From Diacronema lutheri (taxonomy: Eukaryota > Haptophyta > Pavlovophyceae > Pavlovales > Pavlovaceae), in contig JAGTXO010000061.1 of NCBI GenBank assembly GCA_019448385.1, positions 1-64,000 on the forward strand: 64,000 bases of DNA, in the 5' to 3' direction. The notes beneath the pieces are model-generated. The model searched no databases. It saw nothing but the letters and a program-made list of their open reading frames with translations, and was not told where the DNA came from. Numbering within the stretch: the first letter of the stretch is position 1; every line of letters starts with the position of its first letter. Of this stretch, positions 1-24,639 are shown piece after piece. Both the position numbers and the translations under genes were made by a program.

Positions 1-406
1 GTATAGATGGTCAAGCCAAATCCGATCAGGGGCACGATCGCGCCCCGAGTGCAGCGCGGGCCGTTCGGAAGGACGTCCTTGTGAGGGAGCTCTTCGCGTT
101 TGGCGAGCGGGGGAGCACGACGCGCAGCGTTGCTGCGGCGGCGTGCGGGGCGGCGAGCAGCGGTCGGGCTGCTCGCGACGAGGCCGGAGCAGACGGCGCC
201 GTGGCCGCCGGCGCAGGTGACGCGCGCCGACGAGCCGTAGCGAGCGTCCGTGATCCGCACGGCGGTTGGAGCGGGCCGGCTGGTGCGGCGCGCTCGGCCA
301 CGGGTGGCGGCGTGCACGGTCGTGCCGCGCGCGGCACGCGTCGCCAGCCGCGCGCGACCTGGGCAGAGCCCGCAAAGCGTCGACCGCTGCGCGGCTCGGC
401 CGTGCG
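1..406. other. gene-free stretch downstream of the Fanzor gene
   Basis: No gene is supported here. The stretch follows the stop of the minus-strand Fanzor gene and is uniformly GC-rich. Open frames exist in several phases but read as arginine/alanine/proline-rich filler without any motif. The left end of the mobile element may lie here or beyond the window edge; no terminal repeat was recognised. Confidence 0.5.
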
Positions 407-3150
407 TCAACGCCGGCCGCGCTTCGGCCCGCGCGCGCTGCCGCCGCCGGCACTGGCGCTGGCAGCTCCGCGGGCGGGGGTGCGGGCGCGAGAGCCGCCG
501 CCGCCACCGCCGCCGCGCCCGCCGCCGTCGTCGCCACCGCCGTCGCCGCCGCCGCCTCCCCCGCCGTCATCGTCGTCGTCGCCGCCGCCGCCTCCGTCGC
601 CGTCGCCGTCGCCGTCGCCCTCGCCGCCGCCGCCGTCGCCGCTGCCATCGTCGTCGTCGTCGTCGTCGCCCTCGTCGTCGCCCTCGTCGTCGCCGTCGCA
701 CTCGTCGTCGCAGTCGTCGCCCTCGCCGTGCACCATGCGCTCCTCACGCTCCCACACCTCGCCGCGCGCCCACCAGGCGAGCACGAGGGCAAAGCGCTCA
801 GGCGTCGACGTGGTGTCGCGCCCGGCCGCGTGCGCCGCCATGTCGTGCACGTCGTAGAAGATGTTGCGCGCGGCGTTGTAGTCGCGGTGCACGGGCTTCT
901 TGCCGCCGTTGCACGCCGGGCAGATGACGAGCGCGTGCACCGTGCGCGTGCCGCCCTTTGCCACGGGCAGGCGCGGGTTCTGCACGAGCTCCGCGCCGCA
1001 GCGCTGCAGCCTGCCGCCCTTGGCGAGCCGCGGCATCGAGCAGTGCATCGACGTGTACGGCTCGGGCACGAAGACGGCCGCGACGCCGCGCCGCCGCAGC
1101 TCGCGCAGCAGCCCCACCTGGAAGGCGGGCGGCGCGCCCTTGGGCTGCGCGCCCTTGTGGTCGCGCAGCCACTTGCCCACGCACACGAGCAGCCGGTCGC
1201 GCGTCACGCCGTCGACACAGTGCGCCGCGATGAGCGCCTCGGCGACGCGCGCCGCGTTGGACCGCCCGCCGCTGTCGCGCCGCCAGCGCTCCTTCCGGCG
1301 CGCCGGCGCGTCGTACACGTGCTCGGCGGCGCGCTCGCGCACCCGCGCGCTCTCGCGGTGGAAGGCGATGTATTTGCCCGCGTCGAGCACCTTGGCGCTG
1401 TGCGCCTCGCCAAGCCGCGCCTCGTCCGCCTCCACGCTGAACTCCTCGCCGCGCCCGTCGGTGCGCACGCGCCGCCGCGCCGCGTTGGTCTTGGCCGTCT
1501 CGCGCGCAAAGCCCGCGGCGCGCGCGCGCGCGCGCTGCGTGAACTGCCGCCAGACGGCCGCCCGCCCGACGTGCGCAGAGTAGGTGGTGATGTTGCCCAT
1601 GTTCGGGTCGGCCGCGACGACGACCGCCGCCTCGACGTCGATCGCCCGCCGCAGCTCGGAGCCGAGCGCGACGGCGATGCGCCCGTCCGGCCGGCGCCAG
1701 CGGTGCAGGACGCCCGAGCCGCCGGCCGGCGCCTGCGCCTTCGGCACGAGGACGGTCCCGACGGCGTGCACGGCGACGCCATCTGTCACCACCGACTTGA
1801 CGGGCTGCCGGCCCGGGAGCGGCACGCGCGGCAGCGGCGCGAGGCCAACCCACGAGCGCCGCGCGTGCCACGGCAGATCGGCCGGCGGCCGCTCGCGCCC
1901 GGCGTAGTCGAAGACGCGGTTGGAGATGTCGAAGCGCGTCGCAAAGACCGCGTACCTGACGCGCACGTCCGACATCGGCGGGGTGTTGCCGTTTGTGCCT
2001 GTCCACTTGATCGGCTCGCCATCGTGGTCGCGCAGGTCCAGCGCCTTGAGCCGCGCGCGCAGCTCCTTGCGCTCGTCATCCGAAAGCGTCACCCAGATGG
2101 CGCTCGCGGCGAGGCGCACGTTGCGCGGCACCTGCGCGCAGCGCGCGGCGCGCGAGCGCGCGGGCGCGTGACCAACCTGGCCGCGGGGCGGCGCGCACGG
2201 CGGCGGCGCGCGCGCTTGGGCGCTCGGCGGCGGCAGCGGCAGCCACGCCTCGCGCGCACATTGTGCGTGCGCAGCGGCGCCACATTGTACCGCGGCGGCC
2301 GTCCGGTCAGCTGCGTGTGGATGTGCGCGAGCCGGCAGAGCAGCGCCTGCCCCTCGGCCACGTGCTGCAGGGTGCGGATCTGCACGAGGAAGTAGCGCGT
2401 CGTGTGCCGGTCGTAGTTCCACCTTTTCGTGGGCGTGCACTTGTAGTCGATCTTGTGGAGGACCATGTCGGGCAGGTGGCGGTCGAGCGCGGCGGGGCAG
2501 CCGACGCGCGCGCCCTCCACGTCGCCGCGCAGCAGCCGCTCGCACAGCTCGCGCACGCGCGCGTTTCGCTGCATCTCGGGCAGCGCGACGAGCGCCTCGT
2601 CGCGCTCGACTGCCGCGCGGACGACGTCGCGGAGCAGCCCGTTCACGACGCGCGATGGGTGCATCAGGCACGCGGTGGACACCTGCGTCGCCTCCGCCTC
2701 GAGGATCTCCGTGAGGCCCACCGCGCAGACGGGCTGGACGCCCTCGGCCATCTCGCCGACGGCGCGCGCCGTCGCCGCCTTGGTCTGCGCGGCGGCTTGC
2801 TCGGCGGGCTTGCCTCGCGGCGCTGCACCGTACGTGCTCTCGTCCTTGTGCCAGCCGATGGCCGAGAAGATCGCACGGACGGATCCCTTGTCCATCGTGG
2901 TCGACGTGTGCACGCTGGTCGACGGGCCGCCCGACGCCGCGCCGACGGCCTGCGCGCTCGCCACCGCAGCCTCGTCGCGCACCACCTTGTTGATGACGCG
3001 GTACGCCTGTGTCGTGAGCCTGTGCACGGCCGCCGCGATGCGCCGCAGCTCCTTCCGCGCACCGGGCTGCGCCGTCACCGCCTGCGGCCCCGCGTTGAGC
3101 GTCGAGCGCTTGACCACGAAGCCCGGGAGCACGCTGCCGCGCGTGCGCGC
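407..3150 (-). other. Fanzor (TnpB-like RNA-guided nuclease) module
   Basis: This C-terminal module carries the RuvC signature of the Fanzor/TnpB family. RuvC-I is AADPNMGN with its Asp at 1607-1609. RuvC-II is VPEPYTSMHC with its Glu at 1061-1063. RuvC-III is HRDYNAARNI with its Asp at 881-883. Cysteines of the inserted zinc ribbon lie between II and III (MHC, QRCG, CPAC). Known family members are RNA-guided DNA endonucleases in eukaryotic transposons and large viruses. All catalytic acidic positions are present, so the nuclease core looks intact. It ends in an Asp/Gly tail. The module spans the 128-nt intron at 2132-2259. A guide RNA (omegaRNA) would be expected next to the gene; none could be recognised by eye. 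Confidence 0.85.
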
Positions 3151-6100
3151 CGTCGCGCCGCCGGCGGCGCGCGCGCTCGGCGCAGCGGGCTCGTCCACGC
3201 GCGCGCGCTCGACGCCGCGCGCGCGGGGAACGCTCGGCGCGCGCGCGCCCGCGGCGTCGCGCGCGCTCGCGGCGGCACCCGCCGCGGCGCGCTTGCCCGC
3301 GGCGCCCGACTCGCCGTGCGCGCGAAGCGGCGCCGACGCCAATGCCGACGCCGCGCCCGCGCCGCCGCTGCCGCTGCCCGATCCGCCCGCGCGCCGCTTC
3401 TGCTCGTCGCGCGTCTTGCGGAACTGGGCGACGAGGTCGCTGCTCACGTTGGCCTCAGGCTCCCACGTGTCGGCGCTCTCGTCGTAGCCCCGCCACCTGA
3501 TCCGGAACTGGAACGTCAACTTCTTGCCCGCCTTGCGGCGCTCGTCGACGACCGCCTCGACCTCGTACGTGCGCGCCTCCTCGTCGACGCTCGCGCCCGC
3601 CGCGCTCGCGCCCGTGTCCGGCCACCCAGCGACCGTGCCGCCCAGCCTCTCGGCGGCCGCGCGCAGCTGCCGCTCGCGCTGGGCGGCCGCGGCGCCTCGC
3701 GCGACCAGCGCGGGCAGCATGCCCGCGCCGCCCGCGAGGCCGTGCGCGCCGACGCTGGCGGTCATCAGCGCGTCGAGGCACGCGAACGTTGCGAGCGCAC
3801 ACGCGCCATCGTCGCCGCCGCGCGGCTGCGAGCGCACGACGGGCGATGGCCGCGGCTCCCCCTCGGCCGCGAGCAGCGGCCAGATCGCACTGGCCAGCGC
3901 GACGGCATGCGCGCCGACCGCGACGGCCACGTCCGCGTCGAGCGGCGCAAAGTCGTAGCGCACGAGCGCGGCCGGGCGCGAGTCGTCCGTCGGCCGGTCG
4001 GCGACGAGCAGCCCGACCGGGCGCGGCGGCTCGCCGGACGGCGCGGCGACGGGCACGCAGAGGAGCACGACGAGCAGGCGCGGCGTGCCGCCGAGCAGCG
4101 CGCGCGCGGCATCCGCCCCGTCGGCTCCGCCGCGCGCGGCCGCGGCGAGCAGCTCGGCCGCGCGCGTCGGGCCCAGCGCCGTGCGCGCGTCCTTGCGCGC
4201 GCGTGCGCGGGCCGTGTACGCGGCGCAGGCGTCGTCGAGCACCGCCGCGCTGGGCGCGGTGCCAGTCGTCGCCCACGCGCGCAGCGCGTCGCGCACCCGC
4301 GTGACGATCGCCTGGTCGACCGCCGCCTCGCCGGCAGCGTGCGCCGGCGCGCACGCCGGCGGTGCGGCGGCAGGCGCGAGCGCGGGCGCGCCGTCGGCGC
4401 CGTCAACGCCGACGGCGCCGTCGGCGCGCCGCCACGCGAGCTTCGCCTCGATCTGCTGCCGGACGGCGTGGCAGTGCCGGTCGATGCCGCGCGCGTCGTC
4501 GAGCGCGGCCAGCGCGTCCTCAGCGGCGGGACGGCCGCTCGCGTCCGCGACGGCCTGCAGGCAGAGCAGCGCGGCCGCACGCGCGTTGCACGCGCTCTGC
4601 GGCTCGGGCGCGAGCGCGAGCTCGAGCTCGAGCGGCGACGCGCCTCGCGCCGCGGCGATCGCGTCCATCAGCACGTCCAACCGCTGCACCAGCGCCCTGT
4701 GCGCGTCGCGCGGCGCGCCCGTCGACGGCGCGCGCGAGCGCGTCGCCAGGAGCCCGAGCGCGCGCGCCGGCGCGCCCGCCGGCGTGTGCAGCACGAGCAG
4801 CGCCGCGCCCGCCAAGCTCGCGTTGCGCGTGACGAGCGCGAAGATGCGCGTCGCCTCGTGCGCGCCCACCGACGCCCAGATCGCAGCGCGATCGGCGTCC
4901 GTCTGCGCGTCGCACAGGTCGCGCACGTCGTCCGGCGCGAGCAGCGCGCCGCCGCCGGCGGAGCGCGCGACGATCGCCCGCGCCTCCGCCACGAAGACGG
5001 CCTGCGGCAGGTCGGCGTGGCGCGCGTCGACGATGGCGCGCGTCGCGTGCACGCCGAGCTCCACGCCGCGGTAGAAGGCGCGCGCGTTGGCCGCGCGCGC
5101 GTGCGCCGGCCGTCCGTCCGCGTTGCGCCTCGCGCGCGCCTGCTTGCTCGTGCGCGCGAGGCCGTCGCGTGGCGGTGGCGGCAGCGTGGCGAGGAAGCGC
5201 GCGGCGGGCGGCGGCGCGCGCACGCCGCGCTGCCGCCGTGCGATGGCCGCGAGCCGCCGGCCCGCCGCGCTGCCGCCCGCGCCGACGTGCTGCCAGCGGT
5301 TGAGCGCCGCCGGTGGCGGCGGCGGCGGCGGCGCGGCGGCGGGCGGCGGCGCGACGGCGGGCGGCGGCGCGGCGGCGGGCGGCGGCGCGGCGGTGGGCGG
5401 CGGCGCGGCGGCGGGCGGCAGCGGCGGCGGCGCGGCGGCGACGGCAGCACCAGTCGGCTTGTCCGCCCACGCACCCGAGACGCTGTCCCAGGCCTTGCCC
5501 GGTGGCGCGCGCCCACGCGGCCGCGGGTGGCGGGCTCGAGCGGCGGGGGGCGGGCGGCCGGCGCGCCAGTCGAAGACAGGTGCAACCGTGGCGGCAGGCG
5601 CCGAGTGCAGCGCGTCGGTCACAGAGCGCGTGGTGCGCGCGGCGACCGTGGCGCGCATGGCGGGCGGGCGGTGAGCAGCGCCCGCCGGCGCGCCGGCGGG
5701 CGCGGCAGCCGGCGCGCCGGCGGGCGCGGCCGCCTCGAGCCCGGCGGAGGCGCCGCGCTTGCGCTTGCGCGTACCGCCGCGCGTGCGCCTGCGCGCGCGC
5801 CCGCCGCGCGCCCGTGCGGCCTGCGCGTCGCCAGCCGCGTCGCCGGCCGCGTCGCCGCGCCGCACGTAGACGACCGCGAACGCCTCCTCGCCGGTCCCGT
5901 CGACGCCGCCGCGCGCGCGGCGTAGGACCGACCGCCACTGCAGCCGCCGCGCGCGGCCGGGCTCGCACGCAAACCAGCGCCCACCGCGCCTGACGACGGC
6001 CACAAAGTCGTCGTCGCGCCGCCCGCGCCGGCGCGTGCGCAGCAGCACGCACTGCACGTCGAGCCAGCCCTCGTGCCAGTCGGCCGTGCTGGGGGCGACG

Positions 6101-9100
6101 CGAATCGACTGCGGGAGCTCGACGCCAAAGCCGGCGAGGCGCACGATGTGCGCGACGATGACGCTCGAAATGGCGGGGGCGCTCGACGGGTCGTCCGCTG
6201 CAGCGAGCACCGTCTCGCCCCAGTGCTCACGCGTGACGCAATCCGCGTCCTCGACGTGCACGTGCGCCACGCTCGCGCCGAGCTGGTGCAGCAACGCGCA
6301 GATGTCGGCGTCGACCGTCCTCTCCTCCTCGGCCGCCTCGGCCGTGCCGCGGGCGGCGGCGTCGCCCGCCGGCTGCCCGAGGTACGCGATCGCCCGCTCG
6401 ACGGCCGCGCGCTCCGCACGCGCTGCGCTGGCGATCGCCGCATTGCCGACGGGCGCGCGCAGCGCCGCGATCGCGTCTTGCAACGCCGTCGCGTCGCCCG
6501 TCGCCGCCGCCGCCGTCACCGCCGCCGCGCTCGCGGTGCCGTGCGCGACGGCGTGCAGCGCGGCGGCGCGCGCGGCGGGGATGCGCCCGTCCAGCGCGAG
6601 CACGAGCGGCGGCCCGGCCGGCGTCTGCTGCCGCCGGTGCCGCCGGCTCGCAGCCGGGTGGTCGGCGCGCGCGCGCTCGAGCCGCGCGCGCCGCTCGACG
6701 ACGCGCGCCCAGAAGGCCTGCACCCTCGGCTGCGCGAATGCAAGCCAGCCGGCGCCGCGCGTCACGACGTGCACGACGATCCGGTCCTCGTGCCTGAGGT
6801 ACTGCACGTAGAGCGCTTTGCTCACGCCGAGGACGTGCATGCCGAGCTGCAGCTGATCGCGGTGCGGCTGCGGCGGCCCGTCCTCGTGCGCCGTGGCGCC
6901 CGCCTTGGTGAGCGTCTTCACCTCGACGAGGACCTGCTCGTTGTTTTCGGGGAGGATGGCGAGCCCGTCCGGCGAGAAGGCGAACGGCGCGCTCTTGTCG
7001 TGCGGGTCCGCACGCACCATCGGCAGGTTGCACACGACGGTGATGCCGTACGCGGCCGCCAGCTTGCGCAGCGCGACGGCCTCGCCGAGGATGCCCGCGG
7101 TCGTCGCCTTGGTCCGCACCTCGCGCCGCCGCCGGTGCACGTACTCGTCGGTGAGCGTCTCGTGCGCGACGCCGGCGTTGTCGTTCACGACGTCGCCAAC
7201 CTTGCTGCCCGTGACCTCCTCCCATCGCTCGTCGTGCCAGCGCGGGCTGCGCTGCGCGGGCGCGCCCGCGCCGACGGCGTCGAGCACGCGGCGCAGCGCT
7301 GTGCCGTCGGGCGCAGCAGGCACGCGCGCGCGGTCCTGGGCCTCGCGAGCGTCGAGGACGCGGCCCGTAGTGGAATCTTGGGGTAGGTCGAGCTTGCTCG
7401 CCTCGCCGTAGCGGCTCTCCAGCTGGCGCGGTGCGTCGGCAGGGCCGCCGTCCGTGCGCGCACCCGACGCGCCCGCCAGTGCACGCGGCGCAGCGTCCGA
7501 GGCGCCCGCCGCGCCCGCGCCGCCGCCAATCGCGCCAGCGCACGCGCGCGCCGCGACCTGCGGACGGCCAGCCGCAGGGACCTCGTCCGCTCGGCCGGCC
7601 GCTGCGTCGGCCGTCCGCTTGGCCACCTCGCGCACGTCTCCGAGCGCGAGCGTGGCTGGCGCCGTCCAGCTCCCGTTGCGTTTGTCCCAACATTTGAGCA
7701 GCCCGCCAAGGAAGGGCGTGCCCGTCGGGCGGTCCTCGGGCACCTCCGCCAGGATCGCGTCGACGCGCAGCGCGGCCGCCACATCGCAGAACGCGCGCGC
7801 GGCGCGCGCCATCCGCTCGGCGCGCGCGCCGCCGTCGTCCGCCGCGCGGCGGATGGCGTGGCTCACGTGCGCGACGCGGAGCGAGACGACGGCGTGCGCC
7901 GGCGCGTCGGCGCCCGTGCCGAGCGTGTGCCGCCGGATGGCCAGCTGCCCATCGCCCATGCGCGGCGGCAGCGACGCGCACGCCGCGACGGTCGTCGTGC
8001 CGGCCGCGCTGTCGCACAGCCAGCTCGCCTCGCCGCCGCCCGCAAACTCAAAGGTCGCGAAGCCCTCGCGGCCGAAAAGCGCGACGAAGTGGTCGAGCAC
8101 CGCCTTGTTGATCGCGCGCGCCGCCGGCCGCGTCGATGCGCCGCGGGCAGCGCCACCCGCCGCGCCGCGCGCATCGCCGCACGTCGCAGGGCAGGTGCAG
8201 CCGGACGCGCGCACGCCGTCCGACCGCGTCCGCGGCAGCTCGAGCTCGCGCACCTTGGGGCAGAACCAGAGCGGGTTGGACGCCTCGAGGCACAGCACGA
8301 CGAGCCGCCCGTCCGTGCCGGCCAGCGCGCGCGCGTCGCGCAGCAGCTCGACGGCGAGCTCGGACGTCGCCGCGTGCACCGCCGGCTCGCCCGTCTCGCG
8401 GTCGGGCGGGAAGAGGCCGCCGCCGACGAGCGGGCTGGGGCAGCGGCCGAGCATCACGAGAAGCGGCGGCGGCGGCGTCTGCGGCGCCTGCTGCCCGACC
8501 GCAGCCGCCGTCAGCCCGGCCAGGTCGGAGCTCGTGCGGAGGGCCTTGAGCGCGACGCGCGAGCCGGTGCCCGCCTGCTCGGAAAACGTGGCGAGCATGG
8601 CGCACGTGCTCGCCCTCGCGCCGCACTGCCAGCTGACGCGCGCGAGGAGGCCTTCCAGCGTGTCGTTTTCGCGCGGCCGCGTGACCGCGTCGAGCGCCGC
8701 CGGGCCGAGCTGGAGGCTGCCGGGCGTGACGCACAGCACCGCCTCGTGGTAGGCGCGCAGCAGCTCCCTCGGCAGCTGCTCGGCGGGCGTCGCCGCCTGC
8801 CCGCCCACCCACCGTGCACCGTGGCCGCCGTCGCCCGCGCCCGCGAGCCGCACCGCCGGCCCGCCCGTGATCGCCGAGGTCGGCGGCGTGCCGAGCGCGT
8901 CGACGAGCGCGCGCACGGGCGCGACACGCCTGCGCGCAGCGTCCGCGCCGACGGCGAGCGCGGCGATCTGAGCGCCGTCCCATACGCGCTCCCTCGCGTC
9001 GTCCCGCGCGGCCGCCGGCGCGGCGCCCGGCCGCGCGCCGGGCGGCACCGCGCACGCCGCCGCGACGACCTCCGCGCGCGCGCCGGCGGCGTCGGGCGCG

Positions 9101-10953
9101 TGCAGCTGCGCGATCGCGCCAAAGAGCGCGGCGGCCGAGCGGTAGCGGCCGTGCGCCGCGACGAGCGCGTAGAGCACGCGCAGCGCGGCCACGCCCGCCT
9201 GGTCGGGCGCGTCGTCAGCGATTTGCTCGACCTCCCACGTGCGCGTGGGCGGCGGGCTGCCGTCGGCCGGGTCCGGACGCAGCGCCCACGCGCGCTCGAC
9301 GATCGCGTTGAACACGTCGCGCGCGGCGCCCTCGTCAAACTCGGCGGCGCCCGCCGCGTGCGCGCACCACCCGTGCACGCGCGACGTGGGCGCGTCCACG
9401 GCGCGCTGCACGACGAGCACCGCCGGCCGGTCGACGCAGCCGAGGCTCACCGCCGCGTGCTTGCCCTCGAGCAGCGCCGCCGCCGCAGCCTCGACCAAGG
9501 CGTCATCAGGCGCGTCGCCGACGACGACGGCACAGCCGTCGCCGTACTCGGCCTGCATCGCGGCGACGCACGACGCGACAAAGTCGCCGCCCGCGGCCGC
9601 CGCGTGTCGCGCCGCCAGCATCCGGCGCGCGATGGCAAGCCAGACGTACTCGGCCGGCGCGCGCGCGGCGCGCGCGCGAGGCGCGCCGGCCGCGCCGCGT
9701 GCGCCCGCGCGTGCGCCTCCAGCGGCCGCAACGGCCGAGGCGGCTGGAGCGGCGGTGAGCGTGCGCCGCGCGCGCTTCGCCGGCCGCGTGATGGGCGATG
9801 CACCCGCCATCGCACCGCCCGCAGCAGCCGGTGCGGCCGCCACAGCGCCCGCCGCAACGCCACTCGTCACGACGCCCGTGGCGGGCGGCGCGGCGGCGGA
9901 CGTGGCCGCCTCGACGGGCGTCGCGCAACTACCGCCAGCGGTCGCGGACGCGCCCGGCGACGCGTCGGCGAGGAGGTGGCGCAGCACGCCGCGCGCGAGC
10001 GCGACTCGCACGGCGAGCGTCAGCGCGCTCAGGCGGTCGGAAGGCGAGGCGTCGCGCTCGGCGTCGGCGGACGTGGCGGCAGCAGGCGGGGCGGCGGGCG
10101 GCACGGCGGCGGGCTGGGCGGCCGCCGGCGCAACCTCGTCGGCCTTGGCCAGCCAGACGAGCCCGGCGACTGCGAGCACGACGCTGTACGCGCCGACATC
10201 GTCACCCGCAACGCGCGCCAGCCGGGCGTGGGCGTCGGCCTCGGACACGGCGACGTGGAAGAGCACGTCGTCGCGGGCAGCTTGCTCGGCAAACTGACGC
10301 AGCTGCTTGGCCATCGTCACGCCGGCGACGCACGCCTCGCCCGCCTCTGCCTCGACCTGCTCGTCCTGGCCGATGGCGGACGCGCCGGCCTCGGCGCCAG
10401 CGTCGAGTGTCCGGCGGCGCTCGAGGGCGAAGCCACGCACACAGACGCGCTGGAGGCCGCCGAGCGCGCCCGCCTTCTCGTGCAGCGCGCACGACAGCTC
10501 GACCACCGAGTCCACGCGCCTCGCGGCGGCGCCCCCCCGCTCGCCGCGCGTGGCCGCGCGCACGACGAACACCGTGAATTGCGCGCGCTTCGCCGCGCGC
10601 GCCGACGCGCACGCGTGCTTCAGGAGCCGGCAAAGCGCGGGCCTTTGCGCCGCTGCGCCCCGCGTGCACAGCAGCAGTTGGCCGCGCTCGTCGCCCAGCT
10701 CCTGCTCGACGGCGGCCTCGAGCGCGTCGTCCGTCAAATCGCCGTGCTCCGTCGAGGCGAGCGCGCGCGCAGCCGCGAGCGCCAGCTCGCCTGCGCCCGC
10801 GCGCCGCCGGCGGCGCGCACCGGCGGGCGCGTGCGGCGCCGACGCGTGTGACGACGCCGCCGCGTCCGCGCGCGCACACGCGGCGCGCAACGCCTCACGC
10901 GCCGAGGCGGCCGCGCGCGCCCTGGGCGCGAGCTTCAAGAACGTGCGCGCGGC

Positions 10954-11026
<73 letters not shown>

Positions 11027-14000
11027 TCGCCCGCGTCGCCGGCCGGCGGCGGCGGTGGCGGCGGTGGCGGCGCGGCCACGGCGGCGGCAGCAGCGGCGGC
11101 GGCGGCGGTGGCGGCGGCGGCGGCGCCCAGCGCGGGCGGCGGCGGCGTGGCGGCGGCGGTGGCGGCGGCGGTGACGCCAGCGGCGGCCTTGGCGCCGCGC
11201 GTCTGCGGCGGCGTTTCGGCGCGATCGGGGCTGCCCCCGCCACGCACCGCGCTCGTGACCGCGCAGACGCCGCCCGGCGCACGATCGCTGGCCGCGCCGG
11301 TCAGCGCGACGCGGAGGCGCTCGCCGACAGCGTACATGTCCGCCACGCTGAACGTGCGCGGCGCGGACGAGCAGCCCGCCGCGGCGAGCGCGTCGTTGAG
11401 CGCGCCCACTATCGCGAGGCCGCACGTCGCGCCACGCTGCGCCGCCTCGTTGAGCAGCAGCGCGCGGCGCACGCGCGAAATGTCGAGACCCGCCGCGTGC
11501 AGCGTGGCAGTTATCGCCTTGGCGAGCATGAGCGCCTGCCTGCAGGGCGACGCGAGCGTGTCGACGAGCACCGCGTCGTAGCGATGCTCGCCCGCGCGCG
11601 CGACGCGCACAAGGCGCAACGCGGTGAAATGGCCGGAGGCGAGCTGCGCGCCGTCGTCACCGCCCGCGCCGCCGCGCTCGTCCGACGGGCTCCACACGCC
11701 GATGACAGCCTGCGTTGTCGCCTCGCTGCGCAGGCGGTGCAGCAGCGCGGCGCGCTCGGCGTCGTCCTGAAACACCGCGGGTTGCGCGGCGAGCGGCACG
11801 TGGCAGACATGCCCGCCGCCGGCCTGCCCGTGCACGCGCAGCACGACCTCGCAGCACGCGTCGACGGTTGAGGCGAGCATGTCGCCGCTGGCGATGCGCT
11901 CCACCTCTGCCTGCGGGAGGCCGGCGCTCGCGGCGGCGGCGGCCAGCCGGCGCGCAGCCGCGTCGCCCGCCCACGCAAGCAGCGCCGAGTTGGCGGGTTG
12001 GAGGGGAAGCTCAAGGGCGGCTGGTTCGGTGGCGGTAGCCTCGTTGGCAACGGGCACGTTGGCGGTGCGCGCGTTGGCGGCGGGCGCGGCGGCGATGGCT
12101 GGTGGGGCGGAAGACGCGCCCGCGGCGGCGGGCGCGGACGCGGCAGCGGCAGCGGCTAGTGGGGCGGGGAAAACGCCGTCGGTGGCAGGCGCGGAGGCGA
12201 ATGCAGGAGCAACTAGTGGGGCGGGAAAATCGGCGGCAGGCGCGAAGGCGGATGCAGCAGCGGCTAGTGCGGCGGGGAAAACACCGTCGGCGGCAGGCGC
12301 GAAGGCGGATGCAGGAGCGCCCAGCGGGGCGCAGAAAACACCGTCGGCGGCAGGCGCGAAGGCGACAGCAGCAGCGGCCAGTGGAGCGGAGGCGCAGGGC
12401 CACGCGCGCGCCAGCCGTGCAAGCCCAAGCCGCGCGCGAGCGACGCACGCGCCGATGGCCGAGGCGGCGGCGCAGGCCACGACGTGGCCTGGCACCGGTG
12501 TGGCCAGCCGCTCGCGGGTGTGCACGTCGAGCCGCGCCCCACGCCAAGAGCGGCGGCGCGCTGAACGGAGGCGCGCGACCCCGATCGATCCGCCCGCGCA
12601 CGCGCGCGCCGGCTCAGTGTGGCCAACGCGCGCCGCTATGCAAGGCGCGCGCGCGATAACGGCGGCTGTCGGCCGTGGCGTGCGCGTGGCGGCGCCGCGG
12701 CGACGGGCGCGGCACACGAGCCGCTCGGGCGCGCCGCCGCCGCGCGGCACGATGTCGAGCAGCACGGTCACGCCGCGCGCGCGCGCGACCGCCGTGCACG
12801 CGAGCCGCACGGGCAGCGGCGGCCCGTCCGGGCGCGCGAGCGCCGCCACCTCGGCGTCGGTGAGGCTGTGCAGCTCGCGGCGCGCGCGCGCGAACGCGGC
12901 GATGTCCGCGCGCAGCTCCGCGTCCGTGCCGAGCGCGGCACGCGCGTGCACGGGGAGCGACGCGCGCAGCGCGTGGAGCACGCCGCCGCGCGCGCCGCGC
13001 GGCGCCGGCGCGCGCTCGCGCTCAGCGCGCGCGGCGCGCGTGAGCTCGCGCACCGCGCGCGCGAGATTGCGCCGCGCGGCCGCGACGGGAGGGCTAGGTG
13101 CGCGCGCGCGCCGGTTGTAGCGCGGCCGCGCCGAGTCGAGGGGCGGCGGACGCGGTGCGTACGCCGCGGCGCGGCCCGCGCGCCAAAAGGCCGGCGGCGG
13201 GCGCAGCTCCGTCGCGTCGACCGCGGCCGCGAGCGCGCCGAGCGCGGCGTCGCTGTCGCCCGCCGCGTCGGCCGCGTCGACGAGCACGAAGAGCGCGCCG
13301 AGCGCGCGCGACGCGGCCGCCTGCGCGGCGGTGGGGCGGGCGCAGGCAGCGACGCATGCGGCCGCCATGCCGCGCGCCGCGGCGAACGCCGGTGACGTGA
13401 CGGCCGCGCCGATGGCAACGGCGGCGGCGGCGACGGTGGAGGCGGCAGCGCCGGCGATGGAGGTGGCAGCGGCGGCGGCGCTTGCCATCGCGCGGCGCGC
13501 GAGACGCGAGGCGCCACCGACCGCCGCCGCCGCAGCGCGCGCTGCGCGCGCGCCGGTGGCGCGCATCGTCGCCGCGCCAGGCGCCGCCGCGCCGACGCCG
13601 CCGGCGCCCGCGCCGTCGCCGCTCTCGGCCGTGCAGGGCTCCGATGGCGAACCCGGCGTGCGCTGGCGCGTGATGCGCGCGCCGAGGCGCGCGCTCCGCG
13701 CCGCGCGGCCGGCGACGTCGAGGAAGCGCCGTGCGCGCGCCGCGCGCAGGCCACGCGCGCGCGGCGGCGCACCGACAGGCGCCGAGCGCCGCGGCGCGCA
13801 CGCCGGCGCGTCGCTGTCGGGTTGCGCAGCGCGCGCGCGGGAACTCGGCGCGGCGTGTGCGGGCGGCGGGCGCGCGCCCGCGCGGCGCAGAGGCGCGAGG
13901 CGCCGGCCGCAGACGAGGCGTGTGCGCAACCAGGACGGCGAGGGCCGCAGGGCGCCGTCGACGTCGCGCATCGGCGGGCCGCGAGCCCGCCGCGCAGCCG

Positions 14001-17000
14001 TGCGGCGCGCGCGAGGCGCTCGGCGGCGCGCGCGCCGCACGGCGCGCGCGGCGGCGCGCACGCCAGCGACGGCTGCGGCCACGCCGCGCGCCAACACGGC
14101 CGCGGCGTGCGCCATCGCACCGAGCACGGCGCGTGGCGCGCCGAGCAAGCGCAGCAAGCGCGACGCCGTCGCGCGCGCCGGCGCACCGTGTGCAGGGGCC
14201 TCGCCAGCGCCAGCACCGACGCCGCCATCGCCGCAGCCGCAGGTGGCGTCGCCGCCGCCGCAGGCGTCGCGACGGACGCCGCCGCCGCCGAAACAACCGC
14301 CGCACACGTCGCCGCCGACGTTGCCACCCCAGCCGCCGTTGCGTGCGCAGGTGGCTGCGGCGCGTGCGTGCGGGAGGCGTGCCGTGCGGCGCGCATCACA
14401 CGGGCTGCGCGACGCGAGCGACGCCGCCGGGGTCCCCGCTGCGCCAGGCGCGCCGTGCGCGCCAGCCTCGCCGGCCTCGCCGGCGCGCGGTCGCGCGCTC
14501 GCCTCGACGTGGCCGCCTCCGCCGCCATCGCCGCCGTCGAACCGGGCGGCGGAGGGCTGCCGCTCGAACCGCTCGTCGGCGTCGGCCGCCACCGCCGCCT
14601 CGCGCTCCGCCGCCGCGGCGGCCGCACGGCGCGCGTGGCGGAGCGCGCGGCCGCCGTCCGCTGCGCGGCGTGGCGGCGCGGGCGCGGGCTTCGGCGCGCG
14701 CGGCCCCTCGGCGCGCTCGCGGAGCACGGCGAGCGGCGTGCCCGTGGCGACGCTCGTGCAGACGCGCCGCAAGGCGGCGCTTACGCACGCGTGGACGACG
14801 CGCGCCGTCCGCTTGTCGGCGGCGCGCGCGGCGCGGCGCGCGGCCTTGGCGGCGGCCTTTTTGGCGCGCCTCTGCTCCGCCTGCTCCGACAGCGCGCGCG
14901 CCTGGCGCTCGGCTGCGAGCGCGTCCTCGGGCGAAACGGTCGGCCTCGGCGGCCGCGCGCGCGCGCTGCGACGCTGCGCGCTGCGGCGGTCGGACGGCGG
15001 CTGCCGCGGCGGCGAGGACGGCGAGCGCGAGCTCGGCGTGGGCGACCAATCGCCGCTGACGGTTGCGAGCGGCGCAAACGGGTTGTCGTCCCCGCGACCC
15101 GCGGCGTGCGACAGTGCACGCGGCGTCGGGCGCCGGCCGACCGCTGGCGGGCCCCACTCGGACGGCGGCTCCGAGGGCGAGCGCGCCGTCGGCGCCGCGC
15201 GTTGCGCGGCCGGCGGCGCCTCCCGGTCCAGCGCCGCCTGCTCTCTCGCCGCGGCCTGCTCGTCACCCTCCGGCACGCCACGCGGCGCGAGCACCGCGGT
15301 GGCGCAGCGCGTCGCGTTGAGCAACGCCGCCTCCATCTGCCGCACGCTGGCCTTGGCGCACGCCACACCCTGTCTCGCCCGGCGCAGCGCCTCGTGCGCG
15401 CGGCGCACATCCGCGTCGGCATCTTCGCGCATGCCAAAGTGCGCCTGTTGCAGCCGCAGGTCCGCAGGGCGCCCCTGCGCGCGAGGGGCACGGGCGCGGC
15501 GGCGCGCAGGTGACGGAGCTGGCGCGCCGTTCTGCGCTGCGCGCACGCCAATCGACGGGCGCGCGCGCGGCGGGGCGCGCGCGCGCGCGCGCGCGCGCGC
15601 TGCCTACCCAGCCGCCGGCCGGCTCGCGCGAGCGCGCCAGCTGCTCCGCCGCCTCGGCGTCGAGCACGCGCTGCTGCGCCTCCTCCTCGCCCAGTGCAGC
15701 GAGGTGCAGCCGGCGGGCTGCCTTGCGGCAGTTGCCCTCCGCCTTGCCCACGGCCTTGCGCGCCGCGTCGACGGGGTCGTCGTTGGCTCTGGCGCGCCTG
15801 CGCTTGCCCTTGTCGGCGGGCGGCGGCTTGGCGCGCTGCAGCGTGCCGAGCGCGTCGTCGGCTCCGCGCGCGGCCGCCCGCGGGCGGCGGGCCCCAAAAA
15901 GCGCACCGGTCGCCGTGCGCGCCGCGCAAGCAACGACCAGCGCTGACATGCCGGCGAAGACCGCACCGCCCAGCGCCACGGTTGCCACGATGCGCAGCGT
16001 CCCGTGCGCAAGCTGCGCTGCCTCCGCCGCTTTGGCGGCCTCGCGCGCGCGCGCATCGGCGGCTCTCATCTCGTGCAGCAGCCCGGCCGCGCCGCTCGCG
16101 CCGTCGCGGCCGCGCGCGAGCTCGCACAGCACCGCCGCCGCGCGCCGCGTGGGCTCGCGCGCGAGCAGCTGCGCGCCGCCGTCGGGGCGCAGCTTCTCAA
16201 CGAACTCGACAAACGTCGCGTCGCGCCAGAGGGACATGCGGAAGGCCCTGTGCACCGCCCCCTCCTGCTCGCGCATCCGCCGTGCCGCCCGCCTGCCGTC
16301 GCGCGCGTGCGCGTGCGCGGCCGCGTCGAATCCCGCGACGCCGCGCTGCGCGTCGCGCGCGGCCGACGACGGCGCCGCCGCGCTGCCCGCCAAGGGCGCC
16401 GCAGCGGCGACGCGCGCGTGCGGAGCGACGGGATCGCCGGCGGCCGGCGGCTCGGCGCGCTGCGGCGTGCCGTTTGCTCCGCGCGCGGCCGTCCCGGGGG
16501 AGATGGCCGCGATGGCGCCGCCAGCCGCGCCGCGCGCCAGCCACGCGCATAGGCTGCCGACGAGCTCGCCGAGACCCCCGACGGTCGCCGCGGCGGCGAG
16601 TGCGCCGGGCTTGCCGGCCGACAGCGGCTCGCGAGCGTCGTCGTCGCAGCCGCCGGCACCCGTCTTGGCGAGTGCGTCGCGCTCGCCCTCGACGCCCGCC
16701 ACGACCGCCGCCCCTCCGTCGTCCGCCGCGCCGGCCGCGCGCGCGGCCGGGCGCAGAGGAGGCGTGCCGGTGCAGCCGTCGCCGCTCGTCTTCGCCGTTT
16801 CCTCCACTTTGGTCACTTCGTCGCCACCTGCGCCATCTCCGACGCCGGGGCCCTTGGTCACGCTTGCCGCCATGCGCGCCGTGCCCGCCGGCCAGCCCGC
16901 CGACTGCTCGAGCGCGGCGGCGAGCGGCGCGACGCGCGTCGACTCGGGCGCGCTCTCGTCATCGGGCTCGAGCGCGTTGTGCAGGCGCGCGAGCGCGCGC

Positions 17001-19282
17001 TCGACGGCCGCGGCGCCACTGCCGGGGGCGCGGCTCGCCGCGCGCACCGCGCGCCGCCAGGCCGGCGCGAACATGAGCGCCGGCTCGAGCGCCGCGAGCG
17101 CGCGCGCCTCGCGCGCGTCGCTCGCGCCGAGGCGCGGCGGCACGCGCGCGGCTCCGCGCGGCGCGGTGCCTCGGAAGCGTGGGCTCAGCGTGTAGGCGAG
17201 GTGCTGCGGCACGCCGCGCGCCTCCGCGCGCGCGCGTCCGTCCTCGACCTCGCGCCGCGCCTTCGCGATCGCCGGCGTGGCGCGCGCGAGCCAGTCGGGG
17301 TCGGCGGGCAGGTGGATCACGACGAGAATCGGCGCCCAGTCCAGCCGCGGGTTCTTGTGACGGTCGGGCACGACCCACACGAGCAGCACCGTGCCCTCCG
17401 CGCCGCACGCCGCCTCGTAGATCCTGGGCTGCGAGCGCCAATCGGGCCTGACGCGCAGCGCCCGCGCGTGGTCGATGGCGGCGGCGCGGTCGCCATTGAA
17501 GTGAACCGTCGTCACCTCGCCGATGACGGACCGGCCGGACCGCCAGCAGAACACCGCGTCCGCCGACCCGCCGGCGATGGCCGCGAGCGATTCGGGCGCG
17601 GCGAGCCGCGGCAAGCCCTCGAAGGCGGCAAAGTCCTCGTGCGCATTGTACACGCCGCCCCAGCCGTCGTGCGCGTACGCGCGCGCGGCCGCTCGTACCG
17701 CGCGCGGCTGGTTCTCCACGCCCGACGTCATGTGCCATGTCGTCCCCGCGAAGCCGGGCTCGCCCAGCTCGGCCCGCACGACGGTACCGTACCCCGCGCC
17801 CTGCGTCGGGGCGGCGAGGTGGTGCATGCCCGCGCCGGTCACGCCCTCCGTGCGCTGCCGCGTGACGATCGTGCCCGTCGCGTGCGCGAAAAGCGTGTCG
17901 ACCACGGCGGGCGCGCGCCCGCTGTTCGCCCGTAGCCGCGCCCTGCCCGCTTTTAGCTGCTCGGGGTCCTTGGCGTCGTACACGCGCGCGTCCGCGTCGC
18001 CCTCATCAGGCGCAGTGTAGACGCAGCGGCGTTCGAGCGGCGCCGAGCCACCGCCGTCCGCCGCCGCCGGCGAGGTTGGCGCCGCGCCCGCCGCCACCGC
18101 GCTCGTCGCCGCCGTGCCCGTCGCCACCGCCGCAGCCGCCGCGCCCGCGGGGTCGTCGTCCCCGTCCTCCGCGCCCTCCCCGTCGTCAGCGGTGGTGGCG
18201 TCGCCATCGTCCCCGTCGCCCTCGCCCCCGCCGAGGCTGCTGAATGGTCGGGGCCCCCACGCCGAGGCGGCGCGCCGCTGCGGCGCACGCGGCGGTGGCG
18301 CTCGCGACGGCGGCCTTGGCGCCGCCGCGCCGCGCGGCCTGGCCGCCGTCGACAGCGCGCGGCCTGCAGCGCCCGTGAGCGCGTCGAGCGCGGCCGTGCG
18401 TGCGATGCGGTCGTCGGGCGCGCGCAGCGCCGCCTCGACGGCCTGCAGCAGCCCGTCGGGCGCGGATCCGCCGACACTGGCATCGCACGCCTCGGCGAGC
18501 CGCGCGGCCTCGGCGAGCCGCGCGGCCTCGCGGGTGAACGGGCCGAAGCGCCTGGCGCGGTCGCCGAGCAGAGCGCCGATGGCGGCGCGGAGCGTGCGCG
18601 CGCGGGTCTCCTCGTACGCGGCCGTCGTGAGGCGCGCGAGGCGCGCGTCCAAAGCCTTCTTGATGTCGACAAGGACACTCGCGCGGCGGCCGTAGAGCGT
18701 CGATGCGCTCGCCACGACCTCGGCCGCGACTGTTGCCGCGGCGAAGCAACACGCGGCCCCACTCTGCGGGGGCGCCTTGAAGGCATCGATGGGCGGCGCT
18801 GTTCTGCCGATGCGCTGCGCAAGCTTCTTGATGAGCACGCCGGCCGCCGTGGCGTACGCCGATTCGCCGTTGCCCAAGGTGCGCGAATCGGCGAGCAGGG
18901 CGAGCGCGGCGCCGGGCGGCGCGCCGCGCTGCGCGGGCGGCGCGAGGAGCAGGTACGCCGCCGTCCAGTGCACGAGGCCGCTGGACGCGCGGAGGCAGAG
19001 CGGTAGCACGACCACGAGCACCTGCCCAAACCGGTCCGCATCCGCGCATGCTTTGCGCAGGTTGCGCAGCGCCACCTTGAGCGCATGCTGCGAGCACCCC
19101 GTGTCGCCCACCCTAACCCTGCTCGTGCCGAAATCCGCGTAACGCAGCAGGGCGATGAGGCAAGTGGATGGGACCACGTGGGGGTGGGTATCTCCCGGCG
19201 ACAGAATGGTGCTGAGGGCCAGCGAGAAACTGTCCGAGCCGCCCCGCCCGCCGGGCAAAGCGTCCTTCACGGAGTCCTCCAT
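407..19282 (-). CDS. giant Fanzor-containing multidomain protein of a mobile element
   Basis: Three exons fit together in phase 0: 19282-15608 (1,225 codons), 15474-2260 (4,405 codons) and 2131-407 (574 codons plus stop), about 6,200 residues. The introns are 133 and 128 nt with GTAGG/GTGCG donors and GCGCAG acceptors, like host introns here. The ATG at 19282 opens MEDSVKDALPGG. Order of recognisable parts: an Ulp1/C48-like protease (His-Trp near 18970, Asp near 18888, Gln-x6-Cys near 18747), a possible membrane segment near 15950, a second C48-like unit (His 11629, Asp 11560, Cys 11422), weaker C48-like units, a YqaJ-type exonuclease near 6.9 kb, a chromodomain near 3.5 kb and a Fanzor nuclease at the C-terminus. 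Long Ala/Pro/Arg linkers separate them. Most of the protein is unrecognised. The role is probably in movement or maintenance of a large element; protease units may cut the chain or remove SUMO/ubiquitin from host proteins (inference). Transcription as one mRNA is unproven; several smaller genes is the alternative. Confidence 0.6.
480..720 (-). repeat. GAC/GGC trinucleotide run coding an acidic Asp-Gly tail
   Basis: On the plus strand this is a run of gtc/gcc/gtcgtc triplets. On the coding strand it gives stretches of Asp and Gly at the very end of the Fanzor gene. Slippage of the triplets probably lengthened it. Confidence 0.7.
3395..3575 (-). other. chromodomain within the giant protein
   Basis: The segment begins TYEVEAVVDERR and continues through FRIRWRGYDESADTWEP to a NVSSDLVAQF helix. 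That is the standard chromodomain layout: first aromatic in YEVE, the W-x-G-Y core, and the TWEP motif with the second aromatic. Chromodomains bind methylated histone tails and occur in chromoviral integrases and some transposases, where they steer insertion. Here it sits directly N-terminal to the Fanzor module. Confidence 0.85.
6690..7190 (-). other. YqaJ-type exonuclease domain within the giant protein
   Basis: The pattern is GILGEAVALRKL, then FSPDGLAI (Asp codon 6967-6969), then VLVEVKTLTK (Glu 6922-6924, Lys 6916-6918), then HRDQLQLGMHVLGV and ALYVQY. This matches the D...ExK plus Q-helix layout of YqaJ/lambda-exonuclease-like viral recombinases, which resect DNA ends for single-strand annealing. 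The key residues look present. A recombination role in the element is inferred. Confidence 0.75.
10947..11200 (-). repeat. GCG/GGC trinucleotide runs coding poly-alanine and proline
   Basis: A pure (gcg)n run near 10950-11030 and interrupted gcg/ggc runs up to 11200 give more than 20 alanines in a row and proline stretches in the giant protein. It is slippage-prone low complexity sequence inside an open frame. Confidence 0.8.
12150..12395 (-). repeat. coding tandem repeat (FAPAADGVF type) in the giant gene
   Basis: About four diverged copies of a unit of roughly 60-70 bp encode SAFAPAADGVFPAPLAAAA-like peptides in the linker upstream of the second C48-like unit. The copies stay in frame, which supports translation of this stretch. 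Confidence 0.6.
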
Positions 19283-21184
19283 CTGCAGACTGTGGGCACG
19301 TCAGTGTCCGGATGGCGGCCCGGATGATACTTGGGAGAATTTACATGATGCCCTGGAGAATGCCCCGCTCTCCCACAACCAGGACCCGCCAGCGCGCCGA
19401 GCCTACTCGTTTGCCCGCGCCGCCTCTCTTTGCGCGCCCGAGCGCGGCCTCCGAGCGCGGCCAACGTCCTCCGGGGGCGTGCATCGTGGCTGCTCGGAGG
19501 GGCTGCGACGCGGCGAAAGCTCGCTGCGCGGCCGCAACGTGAGCGCGCGCGCGCGGCCGCGCGCCGGCCTGCGCTGCTCTGCACGGCCGCGCGCCGGCCT
19601 GCGCAGCCTCGTCGCGCAGCGTGAGCGCGAGCGCGCGCGAGGTGAGCTCGGCGGATGGGTGCGCGGCGGCGTTGGCGGCGGGTGCGGCGGCAGGCTGGGC
19701 GGCGGGTTTGGACGGAGAGTGTCGGGGAAGAACGGGGCGCATCCTGGCTGGGAGTTGGACGGCGCCCACCACGCGCTGGCGGATCCTGGTTGCCACCACC
19801 ACCCCCCCCCCCCCCCCGGAGACGAGGACCAGGGGCATGGCCGACTCGCTGCGCCGCACAGCGCGCGGCGCGCGGCATGCTGCGCGACCTCAAGCACATC
19901 CAGCCGCGCTCCGCCCACGCAACGCGCGCAATGCCGCGTTGCACTGCAGGTGTGCACGTGCGGCTCTCACGCGCACTGTGTTGCACGAACGGCATCACGC
20001 CACCGAGCTGCGTCCGGACCACGCGCCGCGCGCAGGCGACCACACAGGGGCGCGCCGCGCCGCGCGTGCGCGCCCTCGCAACCGTTGCAGCACGCTCTGC
20101 CTTGCACTGCGCCGAGCCGCCGCGCGCTGTGCGCGTGCATGCAGGGCGCACGCGTGCGACGAAGCGCGCGCGCGGCGAGGCGCGCGGGCGGCTCGCTGCG
20201 CGGGCGGCAACGCGCCCAGCTGCGCCCAGGCCAGGCGCGCGCCCGCGAGTGCCACCGGGACGCACTGCCCCCACCGGGGTCGCCGCGCGCTCTGTGTGTG
20301 CGCTCGCGCGCTGCGAGCGCGGCGGAACGTTCGTGCATGGCGCGAAGAGCGCGGCACCCGAAGACGGCTGCCCCGAGCCCGCGCCGGGTGGCAGCGAGCG
20401 GCGGCACCTCCTCGGCGAGCCCGCCCCGCGCCTTCCCCTCCACGTGGCGTTTTGAGGCAGACGGACACGCGCCCACACTGCGACTGGGCACGCTGCTCGA
20501 GGCAGACACGCACCCAACGCGCGCGCACCACGCGCCCGCGTCGGCGGGCCGGTGTGAACGAGCGAGAGCTCGGTGTCGCCAACGGGGGCACGGGCGCGAC
20601 TTCGGTCCGCCTCTCGACGGACGCAGGCGACGCTGCCGGGAACTTCCCCGACGCCTGCACATCCAGGGCTTCGAGGTACAGAGCTGGGCAACAGTGCCGC
20701 TCGTCACCGATGAGGCGGCCAAGCTCGCTATCCTTGCTGCCCTCGGCTCCACCAAACAGCCGGGCGACCCAACGGTTCGTGATCGCCTGGCCGCCAGGTG
20801 CGAACCGCGCCCGTGCAAGCGCTTCACCCGCATTCTCCGCCCCGCTGCGGACGTCCGCCTGCCGGCCGCGAACACGGCCGGTGCGCGTTGCCGCCTGGCC
20901 CAACACGAAAACCCGCCCGCCCCCGAGGCCGCAGGTCCTACCTGCCCAAGCGCAGCCCAACGGCACGCAGACAGCCCGCCTTGGCAACCGACTCGTGCGC
21001 GAGCGCTCCGCCCTCCACAAGAGCCTGCCCCACGCCACCGCCGACGCGGAGCCAGCGCAGCCGACGCCCCTCCGCGACGCTCGCGCCGCAAGGCGCAAGG
21101 GCCCCGGCGAGACGGCGTCAACCAAGCCCGCCGCTGGCACAGCGCCGGCACCCGGAGCCCACCCCAAGCCCCCGCGCACGCCTC

Positions 21185-21215
21185 GCCCCCCCCCCCCCCC
21201 CCCCCCCCCCCCCCG
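21185..21215 (+). repeat. poly-C homopolymer tract
   Basis: About 30 consecutive cytosines. It could form an i-motif or G-quadruplex, and its length is likely to be unstable. Confidence 0.9.
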
Positions 21216-21610
21216 ATCGGCGGACCGATTGCGTTTTGGTGCGCCAGGCTCAATGCGCCATCGCAGTGGCGGGCCCGCAGACGCAGACGCTGACATGCCC
21301 AACGCTGGGCACTGAGGCCGCAGGCCGGCCCTCCTGGACCTGGCGGGCGAGCTGCCCGCGCAGCGGCCACGCGAGCCTCGCACTGACCGTGGCGGTCGCT
21401 GCCACCGTGATAGCTGCGGGTGCGGCGGCCTTGGCCCCAACCCCATCATCCGTCTTCATCCCCGCCCTGCTCGCGCTCGCGGCCTGCGTCGGCAATCCCT
21501 GCACCGGGATCCGCCCCGCGAAGTCCACACAAGACTTATCCGTGCTGCACGCCAGCCGCGCGCGCCGACGCGCGCCGCTCCCACACGCTCACCTCCGTTT
21601 CCGCGGGCGG

Positions 21611-24635: not shown

Positions 24636-24639
24636 TTGT

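Follow-up and report, generated by a model that had tools for sequence, protein, structure and literature searches.

A young, abundant 31-kb element of the haptophyte Diacronema lutheri with a giant gene frame ending in a Fanzor1-like nuclease

Introduction

Among the closest systems described for the locus studied here are the Chlamydomonas Helitron2 elements CRe-1,2,3, which carry Fanzor1 (Bao and Jurka 2013, PMC3627910) and which, when full length, insert after a fixed motif without target-site duplications (TSDs). The same paper reports unclassified Fanzor elements of Mucor (MCi-2) that have no terminal inverted repeats (TIRs) and show swapped 5' regions, as well as some Fanzor2 elements that encode serine recombinases. 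IS200/605 elements (TnpA-TnpB) insert by a fixed motif and have a free flank at the end that carries the nuclease gene, and IS607 elements recombine between matching short motifs (PMC10711439). What is said of these papers, and of the genome paper cited below, refers to the parts of their text that were available. The present work concerns a window of 64,000 nt, the whole stretch of DNA analysed (positions 1 to 64,000 of contig JAGTXO010000061.1, assembly GCA_019448385.1), from the alga Diacronema lutheri, in which a 31-kb mobile element carries a giant minus-strand frame that ends in a Fanzor-type nuclease.

The element resembles the Chlamydomonas Helitron2 in having Fanzor1 within an algal element without ordinary TIRs, a multi-exon Fanzor gene, insertion beside a fixed 5' motif and full-length copies without TSDs. 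In contrast to those elements, for which no giant frame is described, it is 31 kb long, its Fanzor is in frame with thousands of upstream codons, a chromodomain and a RecE-like exonuclease are present, the motif is TATATA instead of TTTT, and 3' ends are not in excess over 5' ends (221 vs 248). It shares with IS200/605 the insertion by a fixed motif and the free flank at the nuclease-gene end, but it is eukaryotic and giant, and an HUH TnpA was not found in the frames scanned. As in IS607 or Crypton elements, there is no TIR and a short common sequence, GTATA, stands at both junctions; unlike in them, no recombinase was recognised in the frames scanned. MCi-2 is smaller (a 6-kb shared part plus 1-3 kb), has 11- or 12-bp TSDs, and no giant frame is described for it. 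The locus is best read as a giant new relative of the Fanzor-bearing elements without TIRs, Helitron2- or IS200/605-like.

The D. lutheri assembly as published comprises 43,502,671 bases in 103 contigs with 73.25% GC, and the repeats named in its genome paper are only long terminal repeat elements (LTRs) and long interspersed nuclear elements (LINEs) (PMC8379373). In the available text of the literature on Fanzor with chromodomains, haptophytes, algal Helitrons or D. lutheri transposons no account of this element was found, nor was a Fanzor-chromodomain fusion in that pairing both terms; nothing was found in literature linking YqaJ, PIF1 and transposons.

Results

Boundaries, copies and abundance of the element

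The first-pass annotation of this DNA, made from the letters alone, had described a single giant gene. The object was understated there, as the 31-kb multi-copy element surrounding the gene was missed. Its limits are the following:

1..31043, minus strand: whole mobile element, 5' end at 31043 and 3' end at 1 (collinear copies, identity collapse at base 1, right-end comparisons)
1..48, minus strand: element 3' terminus (...GGATTTGGCTTGACCATCTATAC) with a GC-rich hairpin at 29-46 (standard terminal bases in 18 of 20 loci; 221 genome-wide matches)
31020..31043, minus strand: element 5' terminus, GGCGCGGTCCGGGCTGGTCCGGCC on the minus strand (248 genome-wide matches)

Both termini were searched with up to two mismatches in a genome of 43,492,796 bases in 103 contigs, in which the window corresponds to base 1 onward of a 197.6-kb contig; reversed-pattern controls gave no match for either. 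When 18 copies were compared downstream of the Fanzor stop, they agreed for about 410 bases and were unrelated from window base 1 on. Copies on contigs C34, C4 and C85 were collinear with the window at 98.6-99.96% identity over the stretches compared, and at the other end the shared sequence stopped at about 31043. The contig of the window begins precisely at the element end, and others (e.g. C12, C8, C3) start or stop within one base of it; the edge of a repeat is where an assembly would naturally break.

The C-terminal 512 residues of the Fanzor were found in at least 84 copies at 98-100% identity, none of the 84 with an internal stop (84 scored of 448 candidates). Judged from these sequences, the copies are those of a mobile element present a couple of hundred times and recently multiplied.

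End pairing was done with 88 left and 99 right ends, taken from 100 listed on each side, all mismatch-free, of the 221 and 248 in all, with contigs after C43 excluded. Among the matches listed, 59 pairs were formed, with a mean length of 28.0 kb: 24 at 30.95-31.08 kb, 13 at 21.4-22.2 kb, eight at 29.1-29.4 kb, seven at 26.0-26.9 kb and seven of other sizes. Another 29 left and 40 right ends of this set stayed unpaired, some owing to contig ends and some perhaps to a partner carrying a mismatch. The product of 221 copies and the mean size amounts to 14% of the genome, and that of 156 copies and 26 kb to 9%. By extrapolation, the element makes up about 9-14% of the assembly, an estimate affected by copies truncated where contigs end and by a few insertions met at more than one contig end.

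In the C14 and C17 copies, which belong to the 21.5-kb type, a stretch of about 2.4 kb takes the place of window positions 12002-22270; their giant frame remains open over 4,190 and 4,191 codons, respectively, with a different N-terminus.

The giant minus-strand frame

Three minus-strand open frames, at 15263-19300 (1,345 codons), 2089-15603 (4,504 codons) and 407-3454 (1,015 codons), could be joined in phase 0 through introns at 15475-15607 and 2132-2259, as the first-pass annotation had it, to give 6,204 residues and one terminal stop. The fused protein begins with MEDSVKDAL at 19282. Both introns (133 and 128 nt) have GT at the start and GCGCAG at the end. Exons 1, 2 and 3 measure 3,675, 13,215 and 1,725 nt; that each is divisible by three, also remarked on earlier, is a mere consequence of the phase-0 joins.

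15608..19282, minus strand: putative exon 1, 1,225 codons, without a recognised domain (genome-wide probe, 156 matches)
15475..15607, minus strand: putative intron 1, 133 nt, GT-AG (sequence alone; identical in all four full-length copies compared)
2260..15474, minus strand: exon 2, 4,405 codons (open frame, splice join, simulations, other copies)
2132..2259, minus strand: intron 2, 128 nt, GT-AG (KFE25_006464 continuous over the junction; 2 nt more inside the intron in the C71 copy)
407..2131, minus strand: exon 3, the C-terminal Fanzor part (RuvC, zinc finger) and an acidic Gly/Asp tail (PF07282, 1.4e-6; stop at 407-409)

The exon-1 probe was back-translated from the protein and is one to two bases off the genome, so that 156 is a count at the edge of the tolerance.

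Support for the two junctions differed. The predicted exon 2-exon 3 junction is well supported: the Fanzor region spans it, the annotated D. lutheri protein KFE25_006464 is continuous at the same residue (69 residues before it with one difference, 37 after it with five, gapless), and a 2-nt insertion in the C71 copy falls within intron 2 and leaves exon 3 intact. The continuity of KFE25_006464 is seen at the level of the protein model. The exon 1-exon 2 junction is a prediction from the sequence, and exon 1 is absent in the 21.5-kb subtype. Of the single giant gene proposed in the first-pass annotation, the part from exon 2 to exon 3 stood, whereas the join to exon 1 is putative, as are a single mRNA and a single product of about 6,200 residues that would include exon 1.

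KFE25_006464 also joins about 106 Fanzor residues to a SAM-domain protein, and may be a gene-model chimera or a captured exon.

As the first 20 kb of the window have 75-83% GC, long frames arise easily, and chance was therefore tested with composition-matched sequences simulated from the exon-2 stretch by Markov models of order 1, 2 and 5, with 200 sequences per order read on both strands. The median longest frame was 864, 1,104 and 1,092 codons and the maximum 1,693, 2,370 and 2,371 codons, respectively, and the observed 4,504 codons from stop to stop exceeded all 600 simulations. The GC content of exon 2 by codon position (0.815/0.660/0.912) looks like that of coding sequence, and the frame was open in all six further copies examined, two of them with another N-terminus.

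An alternative keeps the same element and has the Fanzor translated on its own, with a promoter or start inside the frame, just ahead of the chromodomain; the upstream frame would then be another protein and the fusion an open frame of a GC-rich genome. Long accidental frames are indeed common, since simulations reach 2,371 codons and an antisense frame of 2,902 codons is found in the C71 copy, and KFE25_006464 starts, in its gene model only, at a methionine inside the Fanzor N-terminal part. However, the exon-2 frame lies far beyond the simulations and has coding-like GC by position, and it holds the exonuclease and chromodomain in one frame that stays open in the six copies, including the two with the other N-terminus. 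We regard separate translation as a serious possibility, though short of probable.

For variation in the giant frame, the differences of the C34, C85, C71 and C14 copies from the window (C14 for window 1-12002) were pooled. The 274 coding differences comprised 186 non-synonymous and 88 synonymous changes and no stop, compared with 205.6, 65.6 and 2.8 expected when the same base changes were randomly placed (P 0.0015 for the ratio). For single copies the ratio was 0.79 in C34, 0.84 in C85 and 0.78 in C71, none significant, and 0.59 in C14, a value as low as which occurred in none of 2,000 simulations. The indels of exon 2 sum to multiples of three in each copy: -24 in C34; +9 in C85; +29, +4, +18 and -24 in C71; and +3, +3, +5, +1 and -30 in C14, its missing N-terminal part set aside. 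These results, with copies 98.6-99.98% identical (C4, C34, C85 and C71, aligned stretches), agree with the earlier statement that the frame of over 13 kb in exon 2 is constrained or very young, and point to mild purifying selection in a young family.

Domains of the predicted protein

Profile searches along the protein, the check proposed in the first-pass annotation, matched first an exonuclease of the RecE/lambda type, then a chromodomain and last a Fanzor1-like nuclease:

6688..7263, minus strand: RecE/lambda/YqaJ-type exonuclease domain (phrog_434, 6.7e-15)
3415..3567, minus strand: chromodomain (PF00385, 6.7e-12; solved chromodomains, best 7.6e-9)
2260..3135, minus strand: Fanzor N-terminal part encoded by exon 2, without a family-model match (assigned by continuity with the C-terminal part and KFE25_006464)
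860..1099, minus strand: TnpB/Cas12f-like TNB zinc-finger domain of the Fanzor (PF07282, residues 786-865 of the exon-3 frame)

The exonuclease match to phrog_434 covers the nuclease core of the RecE/lambda (YqaJ) family. TIGR03033 (3.1e-5) and PF09588 (0.0021) were under their cut-offs in the window, and PF09588 was over it (28.2 bits) in the C71 copy.

The Fanzor at the end of the chain, as first proposed, is borne out by PF07282 (1.4e-6), the long Fanzor1 motif, the relocated glutamate (Ealt) and the TDG motif. The long motif, D-X(125,275)-[TS][TS]xx-C4 zinc finger-X(5,50)-RD as defined in PMC3627910, is present with its residues, counted from the fused start, at D5805, TS 5990-5991, C5994, C6008, C6034, C6037 and RD 6046-6047; its first cysteine pair is C-x13-C, not CxxC. 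Ealt stands six residues ahead of the zinc finger (E5987-PYTSMH-C5994), and TDG is in exon 3 (...KSVVTDGVAV...), where the WED placement is by motif only. Ealt, TDG (WED domain) and, 'near exclusively', DPG at RuvC-I are given as Fanzor features in PMC10711439. A giant frame ending in a predicted Fanzor-type nuclease is well supported.

A search with the spliced Fanzor gave two matches, one 98% identical (an ENA contig) and one an annotated D. lutheri protein. The whole-protein search with exon 2 gave no homologue at E 0.001 or better (1,317 candidates scored). Against solved structures, the exon-2 frame matched chromodomains only and the other two frames had no match at the limits used; the Fanzor part alone gave non-significant matches only, with Cas12f1 at 0.35, ranked under an unrelated protein at 0.17. 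In exon 1, no domain was recognised by Pfam, PHROGs, NCBIfam or solved structures. Tandem Ulp1-like protease copies, seen by eye in exons 1 and 2, were supported neither by self-comparison nor by Pfam.

Junctions and the 3' non-coding end

The junctions were read on the plus strand of the window, whose own right junction is as follows:

31044..31051, no strand: motif GTATATAC adjoining the 5' end ([GC]TATATA in 24 of 27 other copies)

At the left junction, any sequence is followed by GTATAGATGG in 18 of 20 loci, the window included; one locus has two changes and one is at a contig end. At the right junctions of 27 other copies, [GC]TATATA comes after GGACCGCGCC in 24 and [GC]TATATAG in 23; the 27 represent 25 distinct sites, as two pairs have common flanks. 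Five right junctions read later were CTATATAC, GCATATAG, GTATATAG, ATATATAG and CTATATAC, of which three fit [GC]TATATA. No second copy of the left terminus was found at the opposite end in a 14-base search, hence no TIRs were found, and seven of the eight copies with both ends read lack an adjacent TSD. With a fixed motif at the 5' side and a free 3' flank, the geometry is therefore as in IS200/605 and Helitron2.

The left terminus GTATAG and the commonest right junction, GTATATAG, have the five bases GTATA in common, which also fits a recombinase crossover. Integration by a site-specific recombinase, of the Crypton tyrosine or IS607 serine type, would thus use GTATA at both junctions as a short crossover core, in the way that IS607 elements recombine between matching short motifs (PMC10711439), and some Fanzor2 elements do encode serine recombinases (PMC3627910). 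Yet the scanned frames gave no recognisable recombinase domain, several copies have C as the first base of the right motif, and the core is absent in three of 27, so that we hold this mode to be unlikely.

A 227-copy repeat beginning at about TATACTAACGGCGCTTACGTCAGG (e.g. at loci L078, L089 and L090), with a TATA edge and unique flanks, adjoins the 5' end of the element in several copies. An empty-site test with this repeat gave no clean before/after site, owing to its own TATA edge and the unique sequence beside it.

The non-coding end next to the free flank is the following:

1..406, minus strand: non-coding stretch from the Fanzor stop to the element end, a candidate guide-RNA scaffold or terminal signal (comparison with the C27 derivative)

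The C27 derivative (L077, C27:48018-50226), diverged and only about 2.2 kb long, contains 323 nt of the 5' end and the non-coding Fanzor 3' region. After the stop, 289 of 302 aligned bases are identical (8 gapped), whereas the low-complexity coding tail has 239 of 369.

The rest of the element and its flanks

In the sense direction, an inverted-repeat block, a PIF1 helicase and a USP-type frame lie upstream of the giant gene:

28166..29052, no strand: nested inverted repeat block, arms up to 207 nt (repeat analysis)
25279..27830, minus strand: PIF1-family helicase over several frames, not intact (PF05970, 1e-24 and 4.2e-14; PF21530, 9.6e-14)
22678..24171, minus strand: open frame in which about 23203-23469 matches ubiquitin hydrolase (USP/UCH; PF00443, 4.3e-8)

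The helicase changes frame at four places: two, spanning 41 and 44 bases, are too narrow for an intron of 30 nt or more, one has a single 32-base GC-AG candidate and one has ten candidates of 34-58 bases. Of three of these stretches, sought as exact strings, all three were found in C34, two in C85 and none in C14, a copy in which parts of the helicase are missing; the C4 sequence compared ends short of this region. The helicase thus seems dead in the window and in C34, and probably is so in C85. A search with its frames gave one match only, identical, and no clear codon periodicity was seen in the helicase/USP region between the window and C14.

The helicase bears on the possibility that this is a Helitron (Helitron2/Helentron) proper, moved by rolling circle with Rep supplied in trans and carrying captured genes. 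Besides a PIF1-family helicase, frame-broken in the window, the element has no TIR, no adjacent duplication in seven of eight copies and a fixed 5' flank motif, the absence of TIR and, in full-length copies, of TSD together with the fixed flank being what characterises Helitron/Helitron2, and Fanzor1 is known within Helitron2 (PMC3627910). A 122-bp stretch, 93% alike, is common to its helicase region and the locus with the only genome match to PF14214 (Helitron_like_N; C63:35738-36019, L073, a 326-codon frame), hinting at an old Helitron link. But that lone match lies outside the element, in which no Rep domain was recognised, and the terminal hairpins are not clearly above shuffles (z -1.7, -1.0 and -0.7; -0.7 and -1.0 for the 3' hairpin at 29-46), and the one asymmetric inverted repeat seen by the 3' hairpin is a 6-nt candidate. 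A Helitron in the strict sense is thus possible but doubtful.

A size of 31 kb, a lambda-type exonuclease, a PIF1-type helicase and a USP-like frame would also suit an endogenous virus or a virus-derived element. Such an origin is very improbable, as no capsid, DNA polymerase or packaging domain was found in Pfam scans of the frames listed, and the exon-1, exonuclease and Fanzor parts, used as queries, gave no close relatives in viral contigs. The probabilities given to these alternatives do not exclude parts of the explanation preferred below.

Between the USP frame and exon 1, runs of C or G of 29-71 nt occur at 21186-21214, 21618-21688 and 22240-22268, a stretch missing in C14 and C17. A 1,613-codon frame with a protein kinase domain (32421-37262) adjoins the 5' end of the element, and the flanking host region at 50085-52071 holds 44 copies of a 45-bp tandem repeat with 97% match. 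Neither Rfam, at the gathering threshold, nor a tRNA scan gave a match in the window.

Discussion

On balance we think it probable that the locus is a young, abundant 31-kb element of the nuclear genome without TIRs, with a giant multidomain gene that ends in a chromodomain and a Fanzor1-like nuclease and has a RecE/lambda-type exonuclease upstream, and that it inserts in an IS200/605- or Helitron2-like manner. By analogy with those systems, the following scheme can be proposed from the boundaries, copies, junction motif, open frames and domains observed. The element would insert in IS200/605 or Helitron2 fashion, with one end set beside the fixed motif. The Fanzor would be loaded with an RNA that reads through the 406-nt non-coding stretch at the 3' end and on into the flank, and would cut the empty donor site, the motif serving as target-adjacent motif (TAM) and the flank as target. 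The exonuclease and host repair would then copy the element back, with the complex kept on chromatin by the chromodomain. Should the family work like IS200/605, the 5'-junction motif would be the TAM and the free 3' flank the guide-matched target, and the Fanzor would re-cut empty donor sites.

Several observations weigh against this reading. As to the nuclease, RuvC-I is DPN and not DPG, PF07282 is barely over its cut-off (28.8 vs 26.3 bits), the TnpB model NF040570 scores far under its own, and no Fanzor beyond the family of this element was found at E 0.001 (8,000 candidates scored). DPG is not an absolute criterion, given the 'near exclusively' of PMC10711439, and these three features, the DPN, the marginal PF07282 and the lack of an outside match, therefore describe a divergent Fanzor. 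As to the frame, the 21.5-kb subtype has it with another N-terminus and without exon 1, the avoidance of stops is not significant (P 0.06), and the constraint is mild among near-identical copies (ratio 0.59-0.84). As to insertion, [GC]TATATA is absent at three of 27 right junctions and two of the five later ones, one of the eight copies with both ends read has an adjacent direct repeat of 13 nt, and the C39 copy shares 15 nt at 19 and 34 bases off its junctions. Scans of the element frames listed (Pfam) and of the three main frames (PHROGs, NCBIfam), in which small spliced exons could be missed, recognised no Rep/HUH, DDE or tyrosine/serine recombinase; the enzyme for strand transfer may be supplied in trans or be an unrecognised part of the giant protein. 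In the window the PIF1 helicase is frame-broken, and that the three queried parts gave no close relatives in viral contigs counts here as well. At the 3' end, the last 99 nt differ in the C27 derivative (18 of 33 aligned bases identical, 66 gapped) and the RNA fold of the stretch is not significant (z -1.4). The kept 3' stretch is as expected of a candidate guide-RNA scaffold or regulatory end, a reading that the terminal change and the fold weaken.

A bolder proposal is a class of giant transposons without TIRs in which an RNA-guided nuclease is the C-terminal domain of a polyprotein of about 6,200 residues with a RecE-type exonuclease and a chromodomain, combining guided cutting with exonuclease-driven recombination, with TATATA as TAM, and making up about a tenth of the genome. 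In this full form we regard it as speculative and rather unlikely.

How transposons make use of Fanzor is an open question. A recently multiplied family with a couple of hundred insertions, sharp ends and a conserved motif, whose Fanzor shares its frame with a recombination exonuclease and a chromatin reader, gives testable predictions for the TAM, the guide RNA and the form of the protein. In the host, an alga grown in aquaculture, the element may make up the largest single family of repeats; in the description of the published genome, only LTRs and LINEs are named among them (PMC8379373).

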